This document shows positions 1 to 13,165 of a stretch of 40,000 nt of DNA, piece after piece (positions within the stretch are counted from its first letter, which is position 1; every line of letters begins with the position of its first letter). The translations under genes were made by a program, and so were the position numbers. The stretch lies in contig JAHBMJ010005264.1 in assembly GCA_018398765.1 (NCBI GenBank), positions 7,501-47,500 on the forward strand. Reading direction: 5' to 3'. The stretch comes from Chromera velia (Eukaryota > Sar > Chromeraceae). Under the pieces are notes generated by a model, which had not been told where the DNA came from, searched no databases, and worked only from the letters and a program-made list of their open reading frames with translations.

Positions 1-428
1 GTAATCTCTTTCTTTTAGCAGATCTTTGTTTATCATTGAGTCGCCGATCACTGAGTGTGGAATCGAAAAAGCAGGGAGTCCGACCCAACCAGGAGAGAGA
101 GGAGTATCAAAGCCCATCGCTCCTTTAAAAGAAAGGAACAAAGAAAAATCGACCTGCTTAGATAGATGGAAGACAGACAGACAAACAAAAGAAACTAAAT
201 CTTTCAATGTCGTTTCTCTTACTTTCCTGATATTCATTTATTCTCTTTTTTATCCTATTAAAATTTTGTTAAGTCAGCAAAAAAGCAACTATCAAGGGGT
301 TTTTGATCTTGATCTTGTCATGTGACTAATAATGAATTGACGATGGTGCCTTTTCTGGTGAACAAAGAAACGTAAAGTGTAAAGAACGTCACATACAAAG
401 GCTGAAGCCACGTGTGTACAACAAAAAG
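1..428. other. no gene recognised
   Basis: I see no convincing coding exon in this left edge. The open stretch beginning near base 26 has no recognisable domain and starts at a non-ATG codon. The DNA is mixed AT-rich and purine-rich sequence leading into the tandem LINE-tail repeats. Confidence 0.5.
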
Positions 429-735
429 GTTGATTGAAAACGGCCTGGAAGAAATTCTAGGCAGGCCACGAGGTGTGGTCTGAGCCTCAGTGATGGGGCA
501 TACCCCACTGCCGTTTGCGGGGGCGACCTCTACAAGACAAAACGGCGACAGTGCTCAAGGGCACTACTAAATTACTTATCACTTAGTTGATTGAAAACGG
601 CCTGGAAGAGATTCCAGGCGGGCCACGGGGTGTGGTCTGAGCCTCAGCGATGGGGCACACCCCCCTGCCGTTTGCGGGGGCGACCTGTACAAAACAAAAC
701 GGCGACAATGCTCAAGGGCACCACTAAATCACTGC
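429..735 (+). repeat. tandem dimer of a LINE 3'-tail unit (tail type alpha)
   Basis: Two head-to-tail copies with a period of 157 bp, starting at 429 and 586. Both match the sequence just 3' of the LINE copy 1 reading frame (9310-9447). Each unit holds a hairpin with a GNRA-type loop (444-461 and 601-618). Each also holds a long-range 7-bp stem, GCCGTTT with AAACGGC (510-516 with 540-546; 667-673 with 697-703). No reverse-transcriptase sequence lies upstream. These are therefore either 5'-truncated LINE copies or a SINE-like unit that shares the LINE tail. The similarity is seen directly; the origin is inferred. Confidence 0.8.
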
Positions 736-1520
736 TGTAAACATTGCGCTAACGAGAAATAATGTATAATTCAATCATTTTTTTCTTTCTTTTAAAAGCA
801 CTAAGGAAAAAAAAAGAAATTAACTTTAAAAACTAAAAGACGAGCTAAAAGATGAAGGACATGCACTCTACAGAGTTTGGTGACTGATTCACTATAACTA
901 TGAATGACTATTTTAAACGAGCTAGTTTTCTAGTTAATTTTAGTTAATTTTTAGTTATAAGTTGTTCATCCGGGATTATCCGGGACCCCCGATATCCCCC
1001 CTTCACCGGGGCCACGGCATGCTCCCCAGGAGCATCAAGAGTAATAGTATACTCTCTGAGAATAAATCAGCACGCACTGAGAGAAAAGGAGAGAAAGAAA
1101 GAGACAGAAAGACAAAGAGACTGACACTAGGCAGACAGAGTTCATCACTCAGGCAAAAATCAAATCTGTCAGGAAGGAAAAACCATTTGATCTGACAATG
1201 GAATGGAACAATGCGATCGATCGATCGATCAATCGACCACGGAGTCCCTCCCTTCCCACCACACGAACTCGCACGTGCATAAGCAAGAGAAGAGAGCAGG
1301 AGAGAAGGAGAGAAGAGGTAAAAGAAAGGGGCATTTCACCTTCTGGTGACACTAACTCGTCCAAAATCAGTCACACACACTGTCCCCTCTGTCCTCACGA
1401 GATTCCCTGCCCTTCTCCGCTTCACGCAGAAACAGCAGAACACGTTAACCCCTACAACAAATTAACAAAAGGATCAAGCGAGGACAGATGGGCGGCGGCC
1501 TATGGCCAGTTTCAACTCGC
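736..1520. other. intergenic: AT-rich stretch, possible minus-strand retroelement end, 3' flank of next gene
   Basis: 736-960 is AT-rich without coding signs. On the minus strand, about 1060 to 900 reads from a GC-rich, hairpin-containing stretch into a repeated TTAACTAAAA-like tail, which looks like the tailed 3' end of a retroelement inserted in reverse. The hairpin is ATGCTCC-CCA-GGAGCAT at about 1019-1035. A short (CGAT)n run sits near 1215-1230. The remainder to 1520 is probably the 3' UTR of the gene on the minus strand. No gene is supported here. Confidence 0.35.
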
Positions 1521-2688
1521 TTAACCTGTCACACCCGAGGCGGTGAAGGTCGGACCAGGAGTCGACCCCACGCGGTAGGTCCGAGCACGGGCGGGAACGC
1601 TGGTAGTAGAAGAGGGGGTGCGTGCAGTTGCCGGGACCCCCCTCACGACCCTTGCCGACGAGGGCACAGACGACGACTGAGCTGCGGGGACGTATGTGGT
1701 CGTGCCTGTCGTTGCGGTGGCAGTGGAGGTCCGGGGGGTAGTGCCAGTCCTAACAGAAACTCTGCTTGAGGAGGTGGGAGTGTAGGTCACCACGCGGGGT
1801 GTGCCTGTGGAAGCAACAGGGCTTGTCACGACGGTTTGCCGAGGGGGTGTGTAAGTCCGGCGTCCACTCACAACAGTTGTTGTTGTGGGTACAACTCTGG
1901 TGCCAGAAACAACAGTTGTTGTTGTGGGTACAACTCTGGTGCCAGAAACAACAGTTGCTGCAGGAGCGACGGCCTCTTCGTCTCTGACAATGTACACCTG
2001 AGTGGCAGGCTCAACAGGAGGACCACGCCGGCTGAAAGAGAAACCCCAACCTGCACCGAACCCTCTGCCGAAAGAGAACCCGAACCCGAAGCGAGGACCC
2101 CCGAAAGCAAAGGAGAAAGCAAAGGGCCCACCCCCGCGACGGCGACGGCGGCGACTACGGTAAACGATCCCCCCGCTTTCCTCGCTCATTCCAACGCGGG
2201 AGTCATAAGCGTACAGGTTCCTCTCAGGAGCACCTACAACAGGGTCACACAAAGAGAGAGGTGAGGATGGATGAGTGTGTTGCATGAATGAGAGGAAGAA
2301 GTGGAGAACAGAAAGAAAGGAGGAAAAGGAGGAAACCGAGAGGAGCACCAACAACAAACCGCGCGGCAGGGGTGGCGAGTTCACTTTGCGATCTTTCAAC
2401 AAATAGAGCAAAACGGCAAAAGAAATCATCGATCGATGACCAACAGCTCGCGTCATAGCGTCCTTTTCCTTCCTTCTACAAAGAGAAAGAAAGAGAGAGA
2501 GAATGGGAGCGAGGGAACTGAGGAGGGCTGTTCCGTTCAGAAAGATGCAAGAAAGAGGGGTGTCTCTTGTCTTCTCTTTGGTTCGAATCCTTCCCGAGTT
2601 TGGCTTGGTACGTAGACAGAGAACTCTCGATGGAATATTTGGGCTGTACAGAAAAAAAGAGGATCTGTAACACGGGTGGGTGTGTGTA

Positions 2689-2723
<35 letters not shown>

Positions 2724-4019
2724 TAGAGAGAGAGTGAGAGAGAGAGAGAGGGAGGGAGGGAGAGAGGTCACCTCAACTCACTGGGGCTGTCAATCTCTGT
2801 CGCCTCCCTCTCCCCCATTGCCTCCTGTACTTCCCCCTCCCCTTCCTCTGCTGCTTCTTCTTCCTCTGCTGCGTCCATGACGATTTGTGTCATTTCCTCT
2901 TCTCCGATGACCTTCGTCTCCCCTGTCTCCTCATCAGTGGAGGACCACTCAACGACAGGCAGGAGAACGGAGTCCTCCAAAAAAAGGGCCTGCAGGCACA
3001 TGCATGCAGAAGAATTTAAAGGGGGGGGGTGCCAGAGGTCGAATGAATGCATTCATGCAGTTGACGTATCGATCGTAGCCTCTGCTTGGCTGCCTGTACA
3101 CAGTTCTGTGTATAACGGCTCCGTGCGCATTGGTTGTTTTACATGATTGAATTGTCTCTGTGCTTCTGCGCGGCTGAAGAGAGGAAGACTGCCGTTTGGA
3201 CTCACTCCCTTTCTGTGCTCACTCACTGTCAAGAAAGAAATGGGGAGGCTTGCTGACAGGACGAAAAAAAGAGTGACACAGAGGGACACAACGGAACCCT
3301 GAGGAGGCATACGCACGGGTTTGGGAAGGAAAGAATGTGCAGTATGCATACAAGGGAACGATGGAGAAGAAAAGTGTTGGGCTGGAGGCCAGTGCCTGTG
3401 GACGTGCACCAGAGTACTTGAATAAATGCACTGGGAGGGAGGGAGGGAGACGGAGAGGGGGAGGTGCATCTTTTGTCAACGAGACGTCCACCCACATTGG
3501 CGGCAGCTGCCTCAACTGCTTCAAGGGGCACTACGTTCTCTGTCTCTTCCACCCCTTCTCGATCTTCTCCTTCCAATTCTCCGTCCTCCTCCACCGGCAC
3601 CTCGTCACCTTCCGTCTCCGTCTCCCCAAAGCCTTCGAAGGCGTTCCTGACTTCCTCATCGAACCGCTCAGGCGTCACTTTCTCACCCTCCTCGTCAACG
3701 ATCGGGGCCCAAGTGAAAGAAGGGACCCACACGGACTCTCCCACCATAACGGGCTGCAAACGTAGAGAGACAGAAGGATGCTCGACGCGAGGGGGCACAA
3801 AGGAAATGCATAAGGACTCGCTTCCCTTCTGCTCACCTCCAGAGTAAGCTCCGCCTCTGTCTCCTCCATATCCTCAAATGGAACCTCTTCTTCCTGAAAG
3901 AACTCTTCAGGACTCTCCTCTAGACCAACCTCAGGCCCTCCCAGGGAGACGGGCTCGCTCTGCGTCCCATCAGACAGGGCGCACACAGCGAAAGCAGCGG
4001 CGACCAAAGCGAACCTCAT
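1521..4019 (-). CDS. predicted secreted acidic/low-complexity protein, four exons
   Basis: My model is complement(1521..2233, 2782..2989, 3496..3753, 3837..4019), 453 aa. All junctions are GT-AG and keep phase (0, 0, 1): donors GTGAGC, GTGGGT and GTGAGT, with acceptors ending TTTGCAG, CTGCAG and GTTGTAG. The start Met is followed by an Ala/Val-rich hydrophobic stretch (residues 1-15) that looks like a signal peptide. Residues 30-210 are Glu-rich. Exons 2 and 3 appear to hold two diverged copies of one segment, each with a hydrophobic V(G/L)E(S/D)SV-like core, an E-rich loop and then a helix. Exon 4 has an Arg run, a Gly/Phe-rich part and a Thr/Val-rich part with an exact 13-residue duplication. 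It ends in TAA. I do not recognise a family. It is likely exported or surface-located, by inference from the signal peptide alone. Confidence 0.7.
1871..1948 (-). repeat. 39-bp coding tandem repeat, two perfect copies
   Basis: Copies lie at 1871-1909 and 1910-1948 within exon 4 of the secreted-protein gene. A unit of 39 bp is 13 codons, so the repeat keeps frame and duplicates a Val/Thr-rich peptide (VVSGTRVVPTTTT). The identity of the two copies suggests recent duplication. Confidence 0.9.
2680..2760. repeat. (TG)n then (AG)n microsatellite in an intron
   Basis: TG repeats run from about 2680 to 2706 and continue as AG repeats to about 2760, just 3' (on the minus strand) of the donor at 2781. 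Confidence 0.9.
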
Positions 4020-4599
4020 GACGAGAGGCCATACACAGACAATCGAAGCAAGGCACCACTATCCTCTCCACACAGATCCACGGTCAAACTTCCAGTACAC
4101 ATGTAGCAGTCTGAGAAGGTCCTCAGAAGGGCTCTCATTCATGCAAGTCAAGAGTCCCAATTAACACAGACTCCCGAGTCAATGTATGCTCAACACTTTT
4201 GTATTTAAAGTGCCCCCCCTGAGAGCTGTGGCAGCGTGGCCCCGGAAAGCGAAGTGTCAATTTTCCCACATTTAGGAAGGAGTGCGAGCGTTCCCCGGAA
4301 AGCGAAAAATTGCCGCAGAAATTATTAATAACGAAGACTCGACAATTTGAAGACGGCTAAATCCAGTCTGCCGAGTTCATGCATTGCCTGACAGCTCCAT
4401 CTGGAGAAATTTCTCATACCGTGTCTTCAGCAATTTAGTTCAGACAGTGAAGTAGCGATTTACGTGTCCTCGCAGCGTACCCCAAAAAGAGTGAAGTTCA
4501 GGACCAGTGTTTTGATCGGGAGACGGAAAGTGCAAAAAAGTTCCCGAACAGAGAGTTCTGTAGACCGTAACCGCCTCTCTTTGCACCGCCAGACGAAAA
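4020..4599. promoter_or_regulatory. divergent intergenic region with a duplicated 14-bp box
   Basis: This 580-bp gap separates two genes that start away from each other, so it should hold both promoters. The box CCCCGGAAAGCGAA occurs twice in the same orientation, at 4240-4253 and 4293-4306, 53 bp apart. Nothing else in the gap repeats this exactly. A role as a transcription-factor site is inferred from position and exact duplication only. Confidence 0.45.
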
Positions 4600-4857
4600 A
4601 TGGCGACAAAAGGCACCACAGTCGGAAAGGCCGGGCCAGGCTCAGACCTGCGTAAGTTCATGGAGAAGCGCTTGAGTGTTCGTCTGAATGCGAACAGGCA
4701 CGTAGTGGGAGTATTGCGCGGTTACGATCAGTTCATGAACATCGTGCTGGACAACACGGTGGAAGTCGTCAGCGAAAGTGAAAGCAACGAAATTGGAATG
4801 TGTGTGATCAGGGGGAACACAATCGTTCTGTGGGAGTGCCTTGATAAAGCGAAATGA
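4600..4857 (+). CDS. SNRPG: small nuclear ribonucleoprotein G (SmG), Sm-core subunit
   Basis: An intronless 85-aa protein starting at ATG 4600 and ending in TGA. SmG is one of seven Sm proteins that form the ring on the U-rich Sm site of the U1, U2, U4 and U5 snRNAs in the spliceosome. The Sm1 motif lies at about residues 27-58, with G41-Y-D43 and F45-M-N47 followed by an I-V-L-D strand. The Sm2 motif lies at about 66-80, with the signature I70-R71-G72-N73. These residues form the RNA-binding pocket in the family. The length is close to that of other SmG proteins (about 75-80 aa), with a slightly longer N-terminus. The neighbouring gene is transcribed divergently. The lack of an intron contrasts with every other complete gene here. 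I am very sure of the Sm family and confident of the G subtype. Confidence 0.95.
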   Translation: MATKGTTVGKAGPGSDLRKFMEKRLSVRLNANRHVVGVLRGYDQFMNIVLDNTVEVVSESESNEIGMCVIRGNTIVLWECLDKAK

Positions 4858-6540
4858 GGGGGGTGGAGTAAAGCGTCTCCATCCCTCCACAGAAATCAAA
4901 AACGGGACCATCGGGCTGTCTTGATTTGTTCTGGGAGGCTGAGTTGGAAAATCTGCGTGTGTCAAGCGTCTTGGTATTCTTTCTTTTGATCTGGAGACTG
5001 TCTGAAGAAGTTGGACATTGAAAGTCAGGAAGGGGCAAGACTTAGTTGGCCCTTCGTGAACACTGCGAAAACTTCTATTCTTCATTCACCGTGTCTTACT
5101 TATGTTCCTCGCCTATTGCCGCTATATTGCTTCCGATGAGCAATGTTTTGGGTGGCCGTGTACATTGCTGGTAAAGTAATTCGTTGTGTGTTGAAGTTGG
5201 TGTCATCTTCCGATGGGTCGGCTCTTTACATGTGAGTGTCGTGGTGCATTTCTTGTCGTTTATATCCGGTTTTGCGTCCTCCTTTTCTTTTCGCCTCGTG
5301 TCGCCTCTTCTCTTTGGGTTCTTCCAGTCACGCGTGCGCCTGCTCTCTCTTTCTGTTTTTACACACTCCTTTTTCTCCCTGATTTTTCCTCTGATAACTT
5401 TCATCGTGTTGCTGTCTGCATACTTTGTGTCTTTGTACATATTTTATTCTTTGACATACGTATACAACAAAGCATGCATGCCGGTGTCTTTGGACGCGCA
5501 CAGACAGGTAGACAAAGCAGACATTCAGGCAGGCAGACGTACAGACACGAACACAAACAGGTAGACAATCCTGTGCAGATTTTTCCGCGTTCATAGAGCT
5601 ACAGGCAGACGAAACCACACACAGACAGATCGCCAAGACGACAAACTTCGCAGACGACCAACACGACAAACAGGACATCAACCAACACCTGCATCGATCC
5701 ATGTTTCGACAGATCGAATCGGAGAGAGAAGAGAAGAGAGGGACAAGAAACCCTTGCAGGGAACGGATCGAAGTGGAGAAAGAGAAAGGGAGAGGGCTCT
5801 GAAAGGGACAACTGTTTTGGAAGATCGAGAGACTTTTTTTTTGGCCGCAGTGACTGTCAGAGTGATCTTGAGAGAATGAAAAAAGGGAATACAGAGAGGA
5901 AGAAAGAACAGTGAGCGGTCTCTCGCCATCCCTCCATCTCCCTTCCCTGTCTGACCGTCTGGAACAACAGCGAGCCACTGTGTGGGCAAACAAGACAGGA
6001 ATGAAGGAAGAAACAAAGAAGGAAGAAAGAAAAGAAGAAGACGAAAAGATTTACAGACGAGAAAAGCAGGATGAGGTAAAGGCTCTTCTAGTCTATCTTG
6101 GTGCCTGTTTGTCTGTCTGTCCGTCCGGGTGTTATGTCTGACTGTGTCCGCGCATCATACATTCTCTGGTTCTTCCCAACATGACTGCGTCCCTAGCTGC
6201 GTCCGAGACTACCCCCGAGTCACCATCTATCCACAATTCCTTCCATCCATATCATTCATGTCAACGCATACTGACTTAACGTAGATTCGTCGTAGAATTC
6301 AGTCGGACCTGTCTTATCCCTGTCTAGGTCCCTGTCTCTCTCCTTCCGAGTCCCTCCCTCCCTCCCTCCCCGGCTCCCTCTCTGAGACTCTCTCCATGAA
6401 TCCATCCCTAGATCCATCCATTCATACCCGAAAGAATTTCTGCTAGAGTTACTTACTAGTAGAATTGTTAGTTGTACTTGCCAATTTTCTAGCTAATTTT
6501 AGTAGCAATCGAGTTTGAACTTTGAAATGGCAGGTAACGA
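4858..6540. other. intergenic, low-complexity, no gene seen
   Basis: The SmG 3' flank passes into T-rich DNA (5180-5450), then CAGACAGA-rich and purine-rich DNA (5490-6080), then CCCT-rich sequence near 6350-6380. Reading frames here are simple-sequence translations with no domain. The last 100 bp (about 6437-6540) are AT-rich and lead into the truncated LINE. Confidence 0.6.
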
Positions 6541-6546
6541 TAGGTA

Positions 6547-9266
6547 ATGGTTTTAGACGATAGGGTCTGGAGGAGACTAGGAACAGAGAGAGAACCGAGG
6601 AGGATGAAAGACAGTCTCACAATAGAACAAGTTGCAAAAGGAAGCGAAAAACAGATAAAGCTCCCAGATGATGAAGTAGAAACAGAAAAGAAAGAAGAAT
6701 GCAAAAGATGCACAGCAGTAAGAGAAAAGAACACGAAGATAGCTACCGAAAAGGAAGTGAGGGAGGCAATAAAAAAAGTAGGGAATCCTAAGAAGGCTGC
6801 TGGAAAGGATGGAATGCCTCCGGGTCTGCTCAGGTTGCATGAAAAATCTTAAGTGATGGTGAATGTATATGCTGATTTGATGAATGCATCTTTTCGTTAT
6901 GCGTGGTGGCCAGAGGGATCATGGATAGAATGATTTACCGGTGACGGCATTGGCAAAGCCTGGCAAGTCACAGGCAGTGATGGGGGGATGAAGAAACGTG
7001 CACCTTATATGTGCAGATAGAAAATGGGGGGACACGATTCTCGGCAATAATGTAGAGAGAGAAGTAAGGCAGAACCCATGGCAGTTTGCATATAGAAAGA
7101 AAGCAGGAACATGCGATACCATCTTTCTTCTTTTATTTATGATTGCCCACCATCTCTCTGTGATTGTGGCCCTCGTTGATTTTACTTGAGCTTTTGACGA
7201 AGTCAGGCATAGCAAGCTTGAGTAGCAACTGAGAGAGGCAGGAGTTTCAGAGGAGTTAATCCGATGGGCCTTGGCATCGGTCAAGAAAGTAAGAGCAAGA
7301 GTGAAAGGGATAGAAAAGTGGTATCCAGAACAGATAGGGACAAAACAAAAGGGGTCCAGTGGGCCCATTTTTTTCAAAGGATACGTACACGACCTGTCAA
7401 AGAGAGTAAGAAAGGAAGGGAGGGCTGGGAGAAGGAGAATAAGAGAACAGGGAGAAAGACCGAAAGTACTGGTCGGAGAGGATGGGAGGTGGGTAGATTT
7501 TTTCTCCGTATTATTTGCAGACGATACGACTTTGCTCGATGCAACAAACAAAGAATTGAACAAACTGCTGGAGGGATTGAAGAAGTACGCAAAGCCGCTC
7601 CGTCTCCTTTTTTCTGATAAATCGAGAGTACTAAGGTTTGGAAGGCAAAGGCAGACAGAAGAGATCAGAATGGGCAGTTACTGTATAGTACTCAGTCTGA
7701 AAGAAGAGAAAGCACAGCCATTTTTAGGTCTGGTTCTTCCCTCAAACTGCGACCTCGATGTAATGATGGCAGACAGAGCAGTAAGAGCAGAGAGATGCAT
7801 ATAAGGATTGATAGGAAAGTTAGCTAGAGAGCCAGCCGTGCCGCCTGCAGAATGTTTTCATTTGTTTAATCAGATAGTGCGTGCAGTGTGGATGTATGGA
7901 TGTGAGATACACCTATGCACAGACAAGGCCTGTGCAGAATTCGACGAAAAACAAAGACGCTTTGTGAGGTGGGTCTTAGGGCTAAGGAAGACAGAAAGCG
8001 CAGACACTACATTGATGGAGGGGGGGATGTTTCCAATTGACATTGAAGTGGCAGAGAGGACGATCAGATGGGCAAGAAAGGCACTAAAAGAAAAGAGGAA
8101 GGAGGCGATTGGGCAGGGTGTCATTCATTGCTTGAGAGCAGGAGTGGAGGATGAACTGAAGAGGGGAAAAAGAACAGAGTTGCATCCCTTTCACTTCTTT
8201 CTGTACTTAAAGAAATGCACACAGACACTATTCACAGAGAGAGGCCTTCATCCTTTTTTAAAAGAGAAGCTTGCAGGCCAGCCAGGAGAGATAGGGACAC
8301 ACGCAGTGAATGAAAGAGTAGATAGGATGGAAAGATGGATTGTAAGCAAGACAGATAAAGAAATAAAAGAGAGGAAGAAAAAAATCTTCAGGTGGAGAAT
8401 TGAGAGGGGAGTGAGAGAGAGAGATAGAAGAGAGAGAGAAAAAGGAAGAAAAGTCCATATGGCACACATACACCGAACAAAAGCAAACGGAAACAGATTG
8501 CAGCTCATTTTGTTTGAAAAGGCGTCAGAAGAAAGACTAAGAGAGGGAATAAAAATAGAGAAAGAAAAACTGGGACGGGTGCCCTTTTGTTATAAGAGGA
8601 GAACACAGAAGGAGAGCAGCCTGCAGAGTAGGAGACAGGATATTAGCAGGAACAAAGGGAAAAGTGCCAGAAAGAGGAGGGCAGAGAGTGCCGTTCGAGG
8701 AGAAACTCTGCCTTTTTTGCAAAGGATGGATGGAAACAGAGGTGTTGGAGGACAAGATCTATATGCTGACTGAGTGTCCGATTTATGATAGAGAAAGAGC
8801 GCACATGTATAGAACATTAGGAGCAGACTGGAACGAGGGAAGAGAAAAGAGAGCAAGAGAAGTTTGCAGAGAGAAAAGAGAAGGACAAAGAGGAAGACTG
8901 CACACTGAGGCTCTGTTCAAATTCTTGATGAACGAAGGGCATAATGCGGTGGATGAGTTTCTGGGGAGGGCGGCGTTCAAAAGAAGAGTGTTCAAGGAAA
9001 GCCCAGGAAGGTACACACCTGGAAGCTCGTTAGATGAAACAGTGCTGGCACAGAGATACGGAGTGATCACAAAAAGAAAGGGAGGAACAGAAAGAAGAAA
9101 AGAAGAATACAAGACCATCCTGGAAGCAATGGAAGCAGAAAGACAGCTGAGGGAGGGAGAACGGGAAATTGCTGAGAAAAGAATGGAGAGAGGGTATACA
9201 CAATTTAAGCCAAAGTGTCCTTTCGTCCTGTGTCATTGGATCGATTTTTGGAGCAGTCCCTTCTGA
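6547..9266 (+). pseudogene. LINE copy 1 reverse transcriptase, broken
   Basis: Frame 1 (6547-6852) carries the linker and RT start (a KKAAGKDGMP-type motif). After a shift, 6998-8773 is one frame broken by only three stops: TGA 7187, TAG 7223 and TAA 7805. It holds the FAYRK...T motif, the D-F-T-stop-A-F-D box, the catalytic F-A-D-D box (about 7512-7526), and the W-M-Y-G-C-E motif of the thumb region (near 7885-7910). A further shift between 8664 and 8773 leads to the C-terminal part (8664-9266), with C-x2-C and a T-E-C motif of the zinc-knuckle type seen at the ends of many LINE proteins. The same order of motifs recurs in copy 2. Two frameshifts plus three stops make it inactive. Confidence 0.85.
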
Positions 9267-9309
9267 GTAGCCCATAGACCAAAGCATGCAAAGCGCAGAC
9301 AGATTGTTA

Positions 9310-9447
9310 TTTGTTAGCGGCCTGGGAAACCAGGCGGGCCACAGGGTGTGGTCTGAGCCTCAGTGATGAGGTACACCCCCCTGCCGTTTGCGGGGGCGAC
9401 CTTTATAAGACAAAACGGTGACAGTGCTCTAGGGCACCACTAATAAC
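9310..9447 (+). repeat. LINE 3' tail, type alpha, with conserved RNA stems
   Basis: It begins 44 bp after the end of the copy 1 frame. Stem 1 is CCTGG-GAAA-CCAGG (9321-9334). Stem 2 pairs GCCGTTT (9383-9389) with AAACGGT (9413-9419), ending in a G-U pair. It matches the two solo units at 429-735 and the partial unit at 9955-10045. In LINEs such tails can be recognised by the element's own reverse transcriptase; that role is inferred here. Confidence 0.85.
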
Positions 9448-9466
9448 TAAACTAACTAAACTAAAC

Positions 9467-9499
<33 letters not shown>

Positions 9500-9575
9500 C
9501 AGATCTTTATCTAGGTTTAAGCACGTTAAACACTTGTTTAAATACTTTTAAAAATTAGCGAACACTTATGAACAC

Positions 9576-9838
9576 TTGACACTCTAGGCGCCGGTTAGAG
9601 AGAAAAAAAAAGAAGAAAAAAAATAAGTGATTTGATGAGATCTTTTTTTTTTTTACTTTTTAACCCTGAACAACACTTAACAACAGTTGTGCAACGCACA
9701 AACAACACTTGTACAACACTTGAACAACAGTTGTAACTGAGTTGTTTGACTGATACAGAAAAAAAAAACAAAAAAAAATAAAGGGTTTTCGGGGATCTTT
9801 TTTCTTTTTTTTTCTCTAGCCGGCGTCTAGTTGACACT
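9576..9838. mobile_element. MITE-1, hAT-like, with perfect 8-bp target duplication
   Basis: The element spans 9584-9830 (247 bp). It starts CTAGGCGCCGGTTAGAGA and ends with the inverted match ...TCTCTAGCCGGCGTCTAG. It is flanked by TTGACACT on both sides (9576-9583 and 9831-9838). An 8-bp duplication with short inverted termini is the hallmark of the hAT superfamily, although P elements also make 8 bp. The interior has A/T runs and repeated CAACA/TTGT words and no coding capacity, so it is a non-autonomous element. It sits just 3' of the LINE tail. Confidence 0.85.
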
Positions 9839-9954
9839 GTTAGTGATACTGGCATGTAGCTTGACATTGAAATGGGAAACCAATTCTCCTTATATTAATC
9901 CTATCATGATCATTCATGATTCTATTTCATATTATGACTAGTATCATGATGTGT

Positions 9955-10045
9955 TACCGTTTGCGGCCCAATTTGCCGGGGCAACGACTATAAGACAAAA
10001 CGGTGGCAGTGTTCTACTAGTAGGTTAGGCTCTAGGGCACCACTT
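9955..10045 (+). repeat. partial LINE tail, type alpha (diverged)
   Basis: Only the 3' half of the alpha tail is present. Stem 2 is kept as ACCGTTT (9956-9962) pairing with AAACGGT (9998-10004), an A-U closing pair replacing G-C. The loop is longer than in the other copies and a CTACTAGTAG palindrome is inserted downstream. It stops at the CACCACT sequence where the inverted LINE segment begins. Confidence 0.75.
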
Positions 10046-10648
10046 TTTCAAGTTTTTCTCTGCTTTGTCTCACTTTTTCTCCCGCTCTCGACTTGGTCTT
10101 TTTCACTTCCTTCAGATTTCTTCTTATGATGATCTCTGGGCTGTCTCCTTCTTTTACTTTTGCTCCTCTTCAAAATTTCTTTTCTTTCTTTGCTGCTCGT
10201 TTGTATTCTCTCTCCACTGTATTGTGCAGCTGTCTGCAGAGCCTGTTTAAGCTTTCTTTCGTCACTCTCACTCCTTTTGCTACATTCATCATCTTGTCAA
10301 ATTCCTTTTCTATTCTTTCTTTCTTCAGACTTTCCTGCAAGTTATCTAAAAACTTCCTTTCCGCCCTTTCCGGCAGAGGTCCCTACCATCGTTTCTTTAT
10401 CTGATCCCTTTCTGAGAGCTCTTTTTCCGTTTTCTTGGCTCTCTCTTTTCCTTTCCTTCCGTTTTCGCTTCTTGGAAATCGCAGGCAAAGCCACAGGGCA
10501 ACGTGATCGGTAGTGATTGAGTGAACATGTCTTACTGAAAAGTCTTGAACTCTCAACAAAAGTTCAGGGGACACATATACATAATCATTCATCGTCCATG
10601 CATTCCGTCCCAATGCAGAAAAAGTAAACGCGCTGCTGTCCCGAAGTC
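10046..10648 (-). pseudogene. inverted LINE segment: C-terminal endonuclease and linker
   Basis: The minus strand reads as one frame from about 10645 down to 10046, with one TAG just after 10383 and one TGA further on. The first part has the end of an APE-type endonuclease: an N-D-Y-V-Y-V-S strand followed about 20 residues later by T-D-H, the counterpart of the S-D-H active-site motif. A Lys/Glu-rich linker follows. It abuts the sense RT of copy 2 at about 10650. Orientation and order fit a twin-primed insertion. Confidence 0.75.
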
Positions 10649-10649
10649 A

Positions 10650-12812
10650 AGAAAACCATAAAACATGCAAAAAGAACACAGACCAATTCATTTGGATTCT
10701 GCAGATGCGAAGTGGAGAGAACTGGGGATCAGAGATGCGGTAGAGAAAGAGGGGAGCGGGAAAAGGAATGAAGTGCAGTTTGCATATAGGAAGGGGGTGG
10801 GGACTCTGAATGCTATTTTTCTTTTGCTTCAATCGATTGCACGTTTTGAGTGTCTGTATGTTTCTTTCATTGATTTTACGAGCGTGTTTGATGAAACGAG
10901 TCATCGGATGATGGAAGTTCAACTAAGAAAACATGGAGTATCAGAAGAGACCATCAAGTGGGTGGCTGCATCTCTCCAGAACATTAGGGCAAGGGTGAGG
11001 GGAACGGACTGGTAGTTCAGAGAAAGCAAGGGGTCAAAGCAAGGCGGGCCGGCCGGTCCTTCTTTGTTTTCTACATATATTAACGACATGCCAGAAGAGA
11101 TCAAGAAGAGAGCAAGGCTGACAGGGAGGGGGCTAAAGGTCCAGAGAGATACAGACGGGTCGGAAGAAGACTTCCCCGTCGGCCTCTTCACAGACGACAC
11201 CTACCTGAAGTCAGCGGAGGCAAGGGAGATGGAAAGATTGCTGAGAGCTCTCGAGGAATACGTAGAGCCTCTCAGACTTCTTTTGTCAGACAAATCAAGG
11301 TTCGTCAAGTTCTGCTGGTCAGAAAGGGAAAGGGAAAGAAAGGAATCTTTTGTTTTGGGAGGGAAAGAGTTAGAGCAGGCAAAGGAATACCCATATCTTA
11401 GTTTGTTGTTGACAGAAGATTGCTCAGTAGATGCAATGATGAGAAAAAGAACAGTGAAAGCAGAAAGACTCTTTTTTACACTGAAAAGTAAGATCACATC
11501 AGCAGGAGAGATTCCCCTAGCCACTTGCTTCCATTGGTTTAAACAGACAGTGTGTGCCGTATGGCTGTATGGCTGTGAAGTGCATTCACATTCGCAGGAG
11601 TCTTTGGCAGACTTCGATCGATTGCAGAGGAGGTTCATTCGATGGGTTTTCCAGTTGAAAGAGAAAGAAAGCATACACACAACCTTTTTAGAGGCAGGCT
11701 TGCTTCCCATTGACTTAGTTGTAGCTCAGAGAACGCTGTTGTGCGCACAAAAAGTTTTGAAGAAAGCAAGAAATACACCAACAGGCCATACGCTTACCAA
11801 GTTAATTCAGGAGGGGGTGGACAGTGATTTGAAGGGGGGAAGACAACATCCTTTTCACTTTTTTCCTCATCTGAAGAAATGTGCTCAAACTCTTTTTCCA
11901 CACAGACGAAGCAACCCTTTTTGTATCAGGAAAGAGCTAGAAGCAGCAGAAAGACAGCCGGCATTTAAACAGAGAGACTAGATAGTAAGATGGGTTAGCG
12001 CACTACAGAGAGAATCGGTGGCAAAAAGAAAGAACGAAATCTTTGCAGAAAGAATAGAGAGCGCAATGCAAAAAAGAAAAGAAAACGAGAGAAAAGAACT
12101 ACAAGAAAGATCACTGATGCATCCGATACATACTGTAATATCAAACGGAAACCGCTTAAACTTGTGGCTGCACAGCAAACAGATAGATAAAAGAAACAGA
12201 GAAAACGGTCTCTCAATTGAGAGAGAAAGTATCAGGCGGACCCCTGTGTGCTATAGAAAGGTTGCACCCTCGTCAGTCCATAGAAGAAGAGCAGCATTCA
12301 GGGTGGGAGAGAGGAGCCTTGAGGTCAATAAGGGGAAATTCTCTCTTGATGGAGGGAGGGGGACCCCGCTGCATGACAGAAAATGCATTGTTTGCTCTGA
12401 TCTTCTTGGCATCTAGGTGGTTGAAGACGAAGTACACGTTCTGACCAAGTATTCTTTGCATAATGCTGAGAGGGCTGTTTGCTTGCAGGCTCTTTCAGAC
12501 ACATGGAATGAAGGGAGAGGGGAAAGAGCAGCAGGAAAGCCAAAATAGGGAGAGGGGAGAAACAGGAAGACAAAAAGGCTTACCTTGTTTTCTTTTCTTT
12601 TAAGTGAGACAGATGGAAGCGTCGACAAGTTTTTGAAGGATGTTGTCACAAAACGAGCTGCCATAAAGGAATGCCGCAAAAGAAATGTATGCAGCCTGCA
12701 AGATGTATTAAGCATTCAGCTGGACCAAGTCCATCAAATCCTTTGGTTAAATGAAAAGGAAAGAAAGAAAAGACAGGCAGAGTATTCAGCAACATGGCAG
12801 CAAATGAAGTAA
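10650..12812 (+). pseudogene. LINE copy 2 reverse transcriptase, single frame with four UAG stops
   Basis: One frame runs from 10665 to a TAA at 12810-12812. It is interrupted only by TAG at 11013, 11979, 12414 and 12546, with no frameshift. RT landmarks in order are: the Q-F-A-Y-R-K motif (near 10780), the F-I-D-F-T...F-D box, the G-G-P-A-G-P-S-L-F box (near 11045), the catalytic F-T-D-D box (about 11184-11198), the W-L-Y-G-C-E motif (near 11560), and a C-terminal C-x2-C...H knuckle near 12390-12440. It aligns throughout with copy 1 at moderate identity, so the two are different subfamilies and not recent duplicates. Endonuclease sequence is missing from the sense part and lies inverted just upstream. 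Confidence 0.85.
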
Positions 12813-13165
12813 GTAAAGGAAGAGGGAGAAACCAAAGGGTTGAGTGACTGGGAAGTAATGAGATTGGCCTCTAATCGATCGACCGTTTGTTTTGAGATGC
12901 CTCCGTTTGAAGTCTGTTTGAGCTCCGCCGGGTCGATCGGCGGGCCGCAGCATCGTCAGTGAGAGTTGATTGATTGCAGTCTTTCGCATGCAATTGATAG
13001 TAATTGATTGATTATCATGTAAACAGTTTTGGCCTGTGCGGGCCAGCCAGGAAGGTCCGATGCGTGTATACGCTTTTCCTGGACGCCGCACGTCGAGCGC
13101 TCAGCATTGGGGCAGGAGGTCAATCCTCCAGACATTAATCCTATCCTATCCTATCCTAACCTAGT
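12813..13165 (+). repeat. LINE copy 2 3' region and tail, type beta, ending (TCCTA)n
   Basis: This tail differs from type alpha. It holds a stem CCAGGAA (13047-13053) with TTCCTGG (13076-13082) enclosing GCGT-GTAT-ACGC (13062-13073). A second hairpin is GGAGG-TCAAT-CCTCC (13115-13129). It ends in repeated TCCTA units at about 13137-13163. The same ATTAATCCTATC word occurs at about 9893. Assignment to copy 2 is by position. Confidence 0.65.

Follow-up and report, generated by a model that had tools for sequence, protein, structure and literature searches.

Why do a long interspersed nuclear element (LINE) and a dispersed element with an unrelated body end in the same tail of about 130 nucleotides (nt) in Chromera velia? 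The question is raised by a stretch of 40,000 nt (contig JAHBMJ010005264.1, positions 7,501 to 47,500 of the forward strand, assembly GCA_018398765.1), called here the window; the genome searched is the 177.8-Mb assembly of 4040 contigs of which the window is a 40-kb part. A sequence-only reading of the window had described the tail as a LINE 3′ recognition structure of two stems, supported by compensatory changes among a LINE copy (LINE-A) and two “solo units”. Recognition is still the best reading, but the reason given for it fails and another takes its place: element B, in whose unrelated body no reverse transcriptase (RT) was found, carries the same tail. We consider it probable that the tail is of the stringent LINE type, used in cis by LINE-A and a sister LINE (LINE C) and in trans by the RT-less B, and that it also stalls the enzyme.

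The tail is a real repeat. Its 22-nt core, AGACAAAACGGYGACAGTGCTC, which represents the 3′ strand of the pseudoknot discussed below, has 703 matches in the genome at up to three mismatches, against 2 for the reversed control. The 3′ hairpin has 657 against 1, and the segment of helices H2 and H3 has 299 against 2. These counts agree with truncation: across tail copies the 3′ end is constant and the 5′ truncation variable, which is a hallmark of LINEs. The “solo units” at the start of the window are really the 3′ ends of copies of the longer dispersed element B, the first of which reaches ~428 nt upstream of position 429, i.e., about to the window’s first base.

Element B is ~2.55 kb long, and its copies align together through up to 1.5 kb upstream of the tail, the extent compared. 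Two full-length copies (L048 with L187 and L054 with L188) are 89% identical over 2.6 kb, and both begin GGGAGCTGCAG. When a 401-nt piece of the copy on contig C3156 was searched against the genome, three other copies reaching the region began to match at query base 103-105 and one more matched within B in part; the other 12 of the 17 matches comprise 11 confined to the 62 nt immediately before the start, which belong to a different repeat, and one short internal piece. Thus, B has a defined 5′ start. With LINE-A it shares essentially only the last ~130 nt, at about 90% identity. Translated comparison (tblastx) of two B stretches (5.6 and 4.3 kb) with LINE-A returned ~39 codons at the tail and, outside it, a single 25-codon match (36% identity) in one copy. 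No RT was found by Pfam in the seven scanned of the eight open stretches of at least 90 residues in one copy, B1 (the remaining stretch has 101 residues), so that the absence refers to one copy by Pfam and to two by comparison with LINE-A.

What B does hold is an open reading frame (ORF) of 229 residues; two other copies are 85–86% identical there and have internal stops. Twelve weak relatives (23–35% identity) occur elsewhere in the genome and may represent an unnamed protein family. Matches to the ORF at G000:C2180:9341-9811, C3858:44845-45255, C2457:73518-73919 and other places lie in some cases within open frames of 300–400 residues. Several identities were tried for the protein and given up. 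A supposed likeness to TFIIS found no support in Pfam, and all other candidates fell below the Pfam cut-off: Pex14_N for the 229-residue piece (E 0.009), Spem1 (E 4.7e-5) or TMEM237 (E 0.67) for a 114-residue piece, and Trypan_PARP (8.2e-5) or FlgH (0.074) for a repetitive 97-residue piece. Comparison with solved structures did not support any named protein (best E 0.55). Neither a tRNA nor an Rfam head was found at gathering scores in two full-length B stretches. A short interspersed nuclear element (SINE) of solo-unit size is ruled out by copies that run upstream into the longer body with its defined start, and B itself is not a typical SINE because it is 2.55 kb long, with an ORF and without such a head.

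Since B joins the LINE-A module to an unrelated body that yielded no RT, it is most likely copied in trans, by the enzyme of LINE-A or of LINE C. The last ~130 nt of LINE-A would then act as a 3′ untranslated region (UTR) module that the LINE RT recognizes in the RNA to start target-primed reverse transcription. LINE C, found at three loci (L092, L103 and L155), carries the tail, and upstream of it shows short, weak tblastx matches (7–26 codons) to the end of the LINE-A ORF. That sister LINEs such as C retain the tail would also fit a different history, in which B arose by deletion from a third RT-encoding LINE and shares the tail with LINE-A by descent, as the slowest-evolving part, with no use across families; the 12 relatives of the B ORF could then be ORF1 of other LINEs. 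We regard this history as unlikely. It has to accommodate the lack of any RT found in B1, a defined 5′ start common to both full-length copies, and a near-total lack of LINE-A sequence outside the tail; under plain descent, a 130-nt module at ~90% identity flanked by nothing detectably homologous is strange. Moreover, a deletion derivative would still require RT in trans.

Several results weigh against a folded recognition module, including the absence of compensatory change among copies. The stem sequences, their GNRA-type loops and their positions had been correctly described (stem 1 at 443-462 and 600-619 in the B copies and at 9320-9335 in LINE-A; stem 2 at 9383-9389/9413-9419), and covariation statistics over genomic copies had been proposed as the check. 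From 225 candidate alignments, 137 remained without overlaps and 121 tails without doubly sampled copies (84 of type A, with a few of type C included, and 37 of type B); only copies spanning the whole tail were kept, and well-preserved ones are over-represented because many were chosen by likeness to the window copies. In this set, broken pairs were near the shuffled mean in every stem and in both families, and changes on both sides of a pair were not in excess over shuffles. A second count, of 54 tails hand-picked from 107 of standard length and set against shuffled controls, gave the same picture: 96.6% of cells paired versus 96.7% shuffled, 2 pairs changed on both sides versus 2.4 expected, and a covariation score of 0.100 versus 0.101. 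Structures slid along the alignment paired fewer cells, a bias to be expected since the structure was derived from the same sequences, and both-side changes were equal or higher in some slid versions. Paired positions vary independently in many copies, and the compensatory argument is therefore refuted.

The pairs that had suggested compensation are better explained by mutation. Differences from the family majority in the 121 tails number 691, of which 321 are C>T and 249 G>A (together 570, or 82%), and the rate of change depends on context (CpG 214/2176, CpA 154/2046, CpT 94/1936, CpC 88/3660). The bias, strongest at CpG and CpA, was observed across tails in loci L004-L186 and in the window at 441-570, 598-727 and 9318-9445, as expected from cytosine methylation and deamination or from a repeat-directed mutator. 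A G-C pair becomes G-U without selection because C>T alone does so. Accordingly, the G-U at 9383/9419 reflects C>T on one side only, at a CpG (T at that column in 14 of 121 copies), and the G-U within TTCTAGG is C>T again (T in 13 of 37 B copies). The A of the supposed A-U pair 9956/10004 is next to, but not within, the stretch of a degenerate copy that can be matched to other copies; it may be flanking DNA, because the alignment of a similar locus, L070, does not begin until CCGTTT (9957). In the copies cited, the cited pairs do form; with independent variation and 82% of changes being C>T or G>A, it is nonetheless highly improbable that compensatory evolution among copies proves a two-stem tail. 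It should be added that decay after insertion is neutral, so that dead copies can hardly reveal a constraint on active ones. The A and B majorities differ at two stem columns, each within H3 (UA to UG and GU to GC), with pairing kept; together with the longer stem 1 of B, these differences are suggestive only.

Computed folds give the module a GNRA-capped stem, two helices, an H-type pseudoknot (CCCCC/GGGGG crossing GCCGTTT/AAACGGC) and a 3′ hairpin, and the RNA may adopt this form in the cell. Of the two-stem description, both stems stand, but further helices can be drawn: stem 2 crosses CCCCC/GGGGG, and a second knot is possible upstream. In the A majority, the downstream knot consists of CCCCC/GGGGG and stem 2 with one extra pair, with loops of 1, 2 and 16 nt; the upstream knot combines the H2 region with GGGGTGT/ACACCCC, the majority form of a strand that differs by one base in the window copy, and its candidate helix competes partly with H2 and P4. 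Two near-disjoint knots as strong as these occurred in 0 of 1000 dinucleotide shuffles of the A majority.

Taken singly, the folds are less striking. Each knot was matched in strength in 14 and 15 of those 1000 shuffles, respectively, and in an earlier run of 400 shuffles for each family the strongest knot was equaled in 4 for A and in 10 for B. Nested minimum free energies are modest, with z −1.56 for the A majority, whose energy 16 of 200 shuffles reach, and z −2.26 for B, where 4 of 200 do so. The knot motif was picked after the sequence had been seen, and both candidate knots draw on one C run, for which they compete; because they share part of it, their simultaneous full formation is uncertain. 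It could be argued that the tail is conserved simply as DNA or RNA sequence, that its pairings are chance products of a GC-rich composition, and that truncation follows from G-richness. The missing covariation, the modest energies and single knots in ~1.5% of A shuffles and 2.5% of B shuffles are in line with that argument, which does not explain as well why both knots never arose jointly in shuffles, why the difference in stem 1 length between A and B retains the GNRA loop on a longer perfect stem, or why both stem columns that differ retain pairing (the chance odds of this last being roughly 1 in 4). On balance, a tail with no important fold seems improbable to us, to about the same degree as plain descent. 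None of the 20 Rfam matches with E up to 5 in window positions 1-12000 overlaps the tails. A likeness to hepatitis delta virus-like or twister ribozymes was dropped, the tail presumably lacking the helices that these require.

If the module is a recognition structure for the enzyme, its knot may also be an obstacle to it. The places where insertions end were read from 97 of the first 100 listed places with the exact tail core, a selection blind to 5′ ends inside the core itself. In 38 copies the 5′ end lies within the 29 nt 5′ of the core, in 5 within the next 62 nt and in 54 beyond the tail, or ~0.0135 ends per nt in the 29-nt zone versus 0.0014 in the adjoining 62 nt. Because the zone was drawn after the ends had been seen, the binomial P (2e-14) overstates the significance; the tenfold difference in rate stands. 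The 97 copies comprise 80 that were measured and 17 that were judged by eye: among the former, 37 end in the zone, 5 elsewhere in the tail and 38 beyond it, and among the latter, 1 and 16 end in the zone and beyond the tail, respectively. The zone spans the downstream knot. Of the measured ends within the tail, 15 fall in loop 3, 6 in the GGGGG strand, 3 in the two bases that follow, 7 in the GCCGTTT strand, 1 in the intervening base, 5 in the C run and 5 in the remaining stretch. No large loss inside the core is evident, since the count for the 3′ hairpin is no higher than that for the core. We infer that the knot slows the enzyme and that many insertions would end inside it, leaving fragments of ~40–80 nt.

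Further points on the unfavorable side concern these ends and the insertion sites. The 29-nt zone is G-rich, and sequence rather than fold could stall the enzyme. Type A has a weaker second cluster of ends 28–60 nt upstream of the tail, in 6 of 28 copies (28 of 29 measured), in a measurement with two spurious values far beyond the upstream DNA available. Searches for target-site duplications in 42 truncated copies gave 2 shared matches of at least 8 nt versus 1.7 by chance; matches of exactly 7 nt numbered 8 versus 3.4. Such duplications were absent from the two full-length B copies, and among 40 scored of 118 candidates, none spanned both joined flanks of the B copy on C3156 as an empty site would. 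The flanks of that copy (G000:C3156:58187-58246 and 55551-55624) each match a dispersed repeat, a different one on either side, whose start or end coincides with the B boundary. LINE-A itself matches RVT_1 with E 4.9e-4, below the curated Pfam cut-off, and the RVT_1 profile over the genome (the best 150 of 1759 candidates) was of no use in placing it. With these reservations we propose, tentatively and with somewhat less than even confidence, a stronger version: a tandem-pseudoknot 3′ module is common to at least three families, including an RT-less, ORF-bearing element of 2.55 kb, and the knot that recruits the enzyme would also be a strong stop, giving rise to many insertions of ~40–80 nt.

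Short repeats follow the tail in both LINE-A and B. The sequence-only reading had the tail end in tetranucleotide repeats; the CTAA and TGAT tetramers of the window copy turn out to be atypical, and the usual unit in the copies read is a heptamer, ATCACTA or ATCACTT. Counted with a pattern that presupposes these units, the commonest unit is ATCACTA in 41, ATCACTT in 33 and another or none in 10 of the 84 A-type tails, and ATCACTT in 35 and none in 2 of the 37 B tails. The heptamers probably arise by slippage at initiation. In the window, the repeat of B copy 1 runs without a gap into B copy 2, which opens with GTTGATTG at 586 (586-597), so that the two tails stand head-to-tail, 157 nt apart; the pair is possibly the outcome of insertion into the repeat or of a template jump. 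Among the 121 tails, insertions occur in 14 cases over 11 alignment blocks, and some repeat knot strands. Local partial duplications of knot strands were seen by eye in L110, L153, L161 and window 9957-10044, and they give the impression of the enzyme slipping or jumping back at those points.

The features of the window are collected in Table 1. Downstream of LINE-A, at 10680-13160, lies a second LINE (D), with ~42% amino-acid identity to LINE-A in the longest tblastx pieces and an RVT_1 match above the Pfam cut-off (E 1e-7); it had no match to solved structures up to E 1. Its tail is quite different and ends in ATCCT repeats. A piece resembling the end of LINE D lies just downstream of B copy B1 and, by eye, also before an A-type fragment in L134. 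A short ORF at 4600-4857 may encode a protein of the LSm/Sm type.

Table 1. Positions in the window of the elements, tails and tail helices discussed in the text.
Feature	Positions	Strand	Remarks
Body of 5′-truncated element B copy	1..440	+	B copies align upstream of the tail; no RT found
Tail of B copy 1 (former solo unit 1)	441..570	+	Followed by heptamer repeat to ~585
Tail of B copy 2 (former solo unit 2)	598..727	+	
LINE-A copy with broken RT ORFs	6992..9266	+	tblastx homology with the LINE at 10680 from ~6992; last ORF stop 9264-9266
LINE-A tail (shared module)	9318..9445	+	Followed by degenerate CTAA-rich repeats and a TGAT microsatellite
Stem 1, GCCTGG-GAAA-CCAGGC	9320..9335	+	B version longer by AA/TT, with GARA loop
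Helix H2, GGCCAC with GTGGTC	9337..9353	+	
Candidate first pseudoknot helix, GGGGTGT (9343-9349; here AGGGTGT) with ACACCCC (9373-9379)	9343..9379	+	Predicted
Helix H3, GCCTC with GAGGT	9357..9372	+	
Helix P4, CCCCC (9377-9381) with GGGGG (9392-9396)	9377..9396	+	
Helix P2 (stem 2), GCCGTTT (9383-9389) with AAACGGT (9413-9419)	9383..9419	+	Crosses P4; H-type pseudoknot
3′ hairpin H5, GTGCT-CTAG-GGCAC	9424..9437	+	
Short degenerate 5′-truncated copy	9957..10044	+	Local partial duplication in knot

If the preferred reading is true, the insertions record, over hundreds of events, where a LINE RT stalls on the structure that it recognizes, and so form an in vivo footprint; the ORF-carrying, RT-less partner then shows that a 130-nt tail suffices to recruit a gene-bearing RNA. 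A word of caution also follows: dead transposon copies in a C>T-prone genome yield G-U pairs that mimic compensatory evolution. Among the open-access papers listed, including those on Chromera retrotransposons and LINEs, no title or abstract opening describes such a tail. Possible novelties are how large and knotted the module is, that its partner bears an ORF, and the footprint left by insertion ends.

SVA, HeT-A and similar elements are longer, RT-less elements thought to be mobilized by the enzyme of another element, and B can be likened to them as a longer RT-less composite. Stringent LINE tails and their shared use are established in other systems (PMC4176376; PMC5135761). Stringent LINEs share 3′ tails with SINEs, and the LINE protein binds a stem-loop of the tail (PMC4176376). 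The pairs formed by UnaL2 and by the zebrafish ZfL2 elements (ZfL2-1 and ZfL2-2) resemble the present case in a tail common to an RT-encoding and an RT-less element, in short repeats and in a stem-loop (PMC4176376). Unlike in those pairs, the module here is ~130 nt long, with several drawable helices and a pseudoknot, and the partner is 2.55 kb long, bears an ORF and has no tRNA or Rfam head. A second comparison is with R2, whose 3′ UTR RNA is structured and bound by protein to start target-primed reverse transcription; a pseudoknot is described there for the A-clade (vertebrate) R2, and a stem-loop in its place for many others (PMC12503042). Rfam showed no sequence relation between the two. 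The tail resembles R2 in a 3′ UTR module that is structured, here by computation, and that would act in target-primed reverse transcription, with a pseudoknot as in A-clade R2 (PMC12503042). Unlike R2, which inserts into ribosomal DNA, the copies found here are dispersed in varied flanks.

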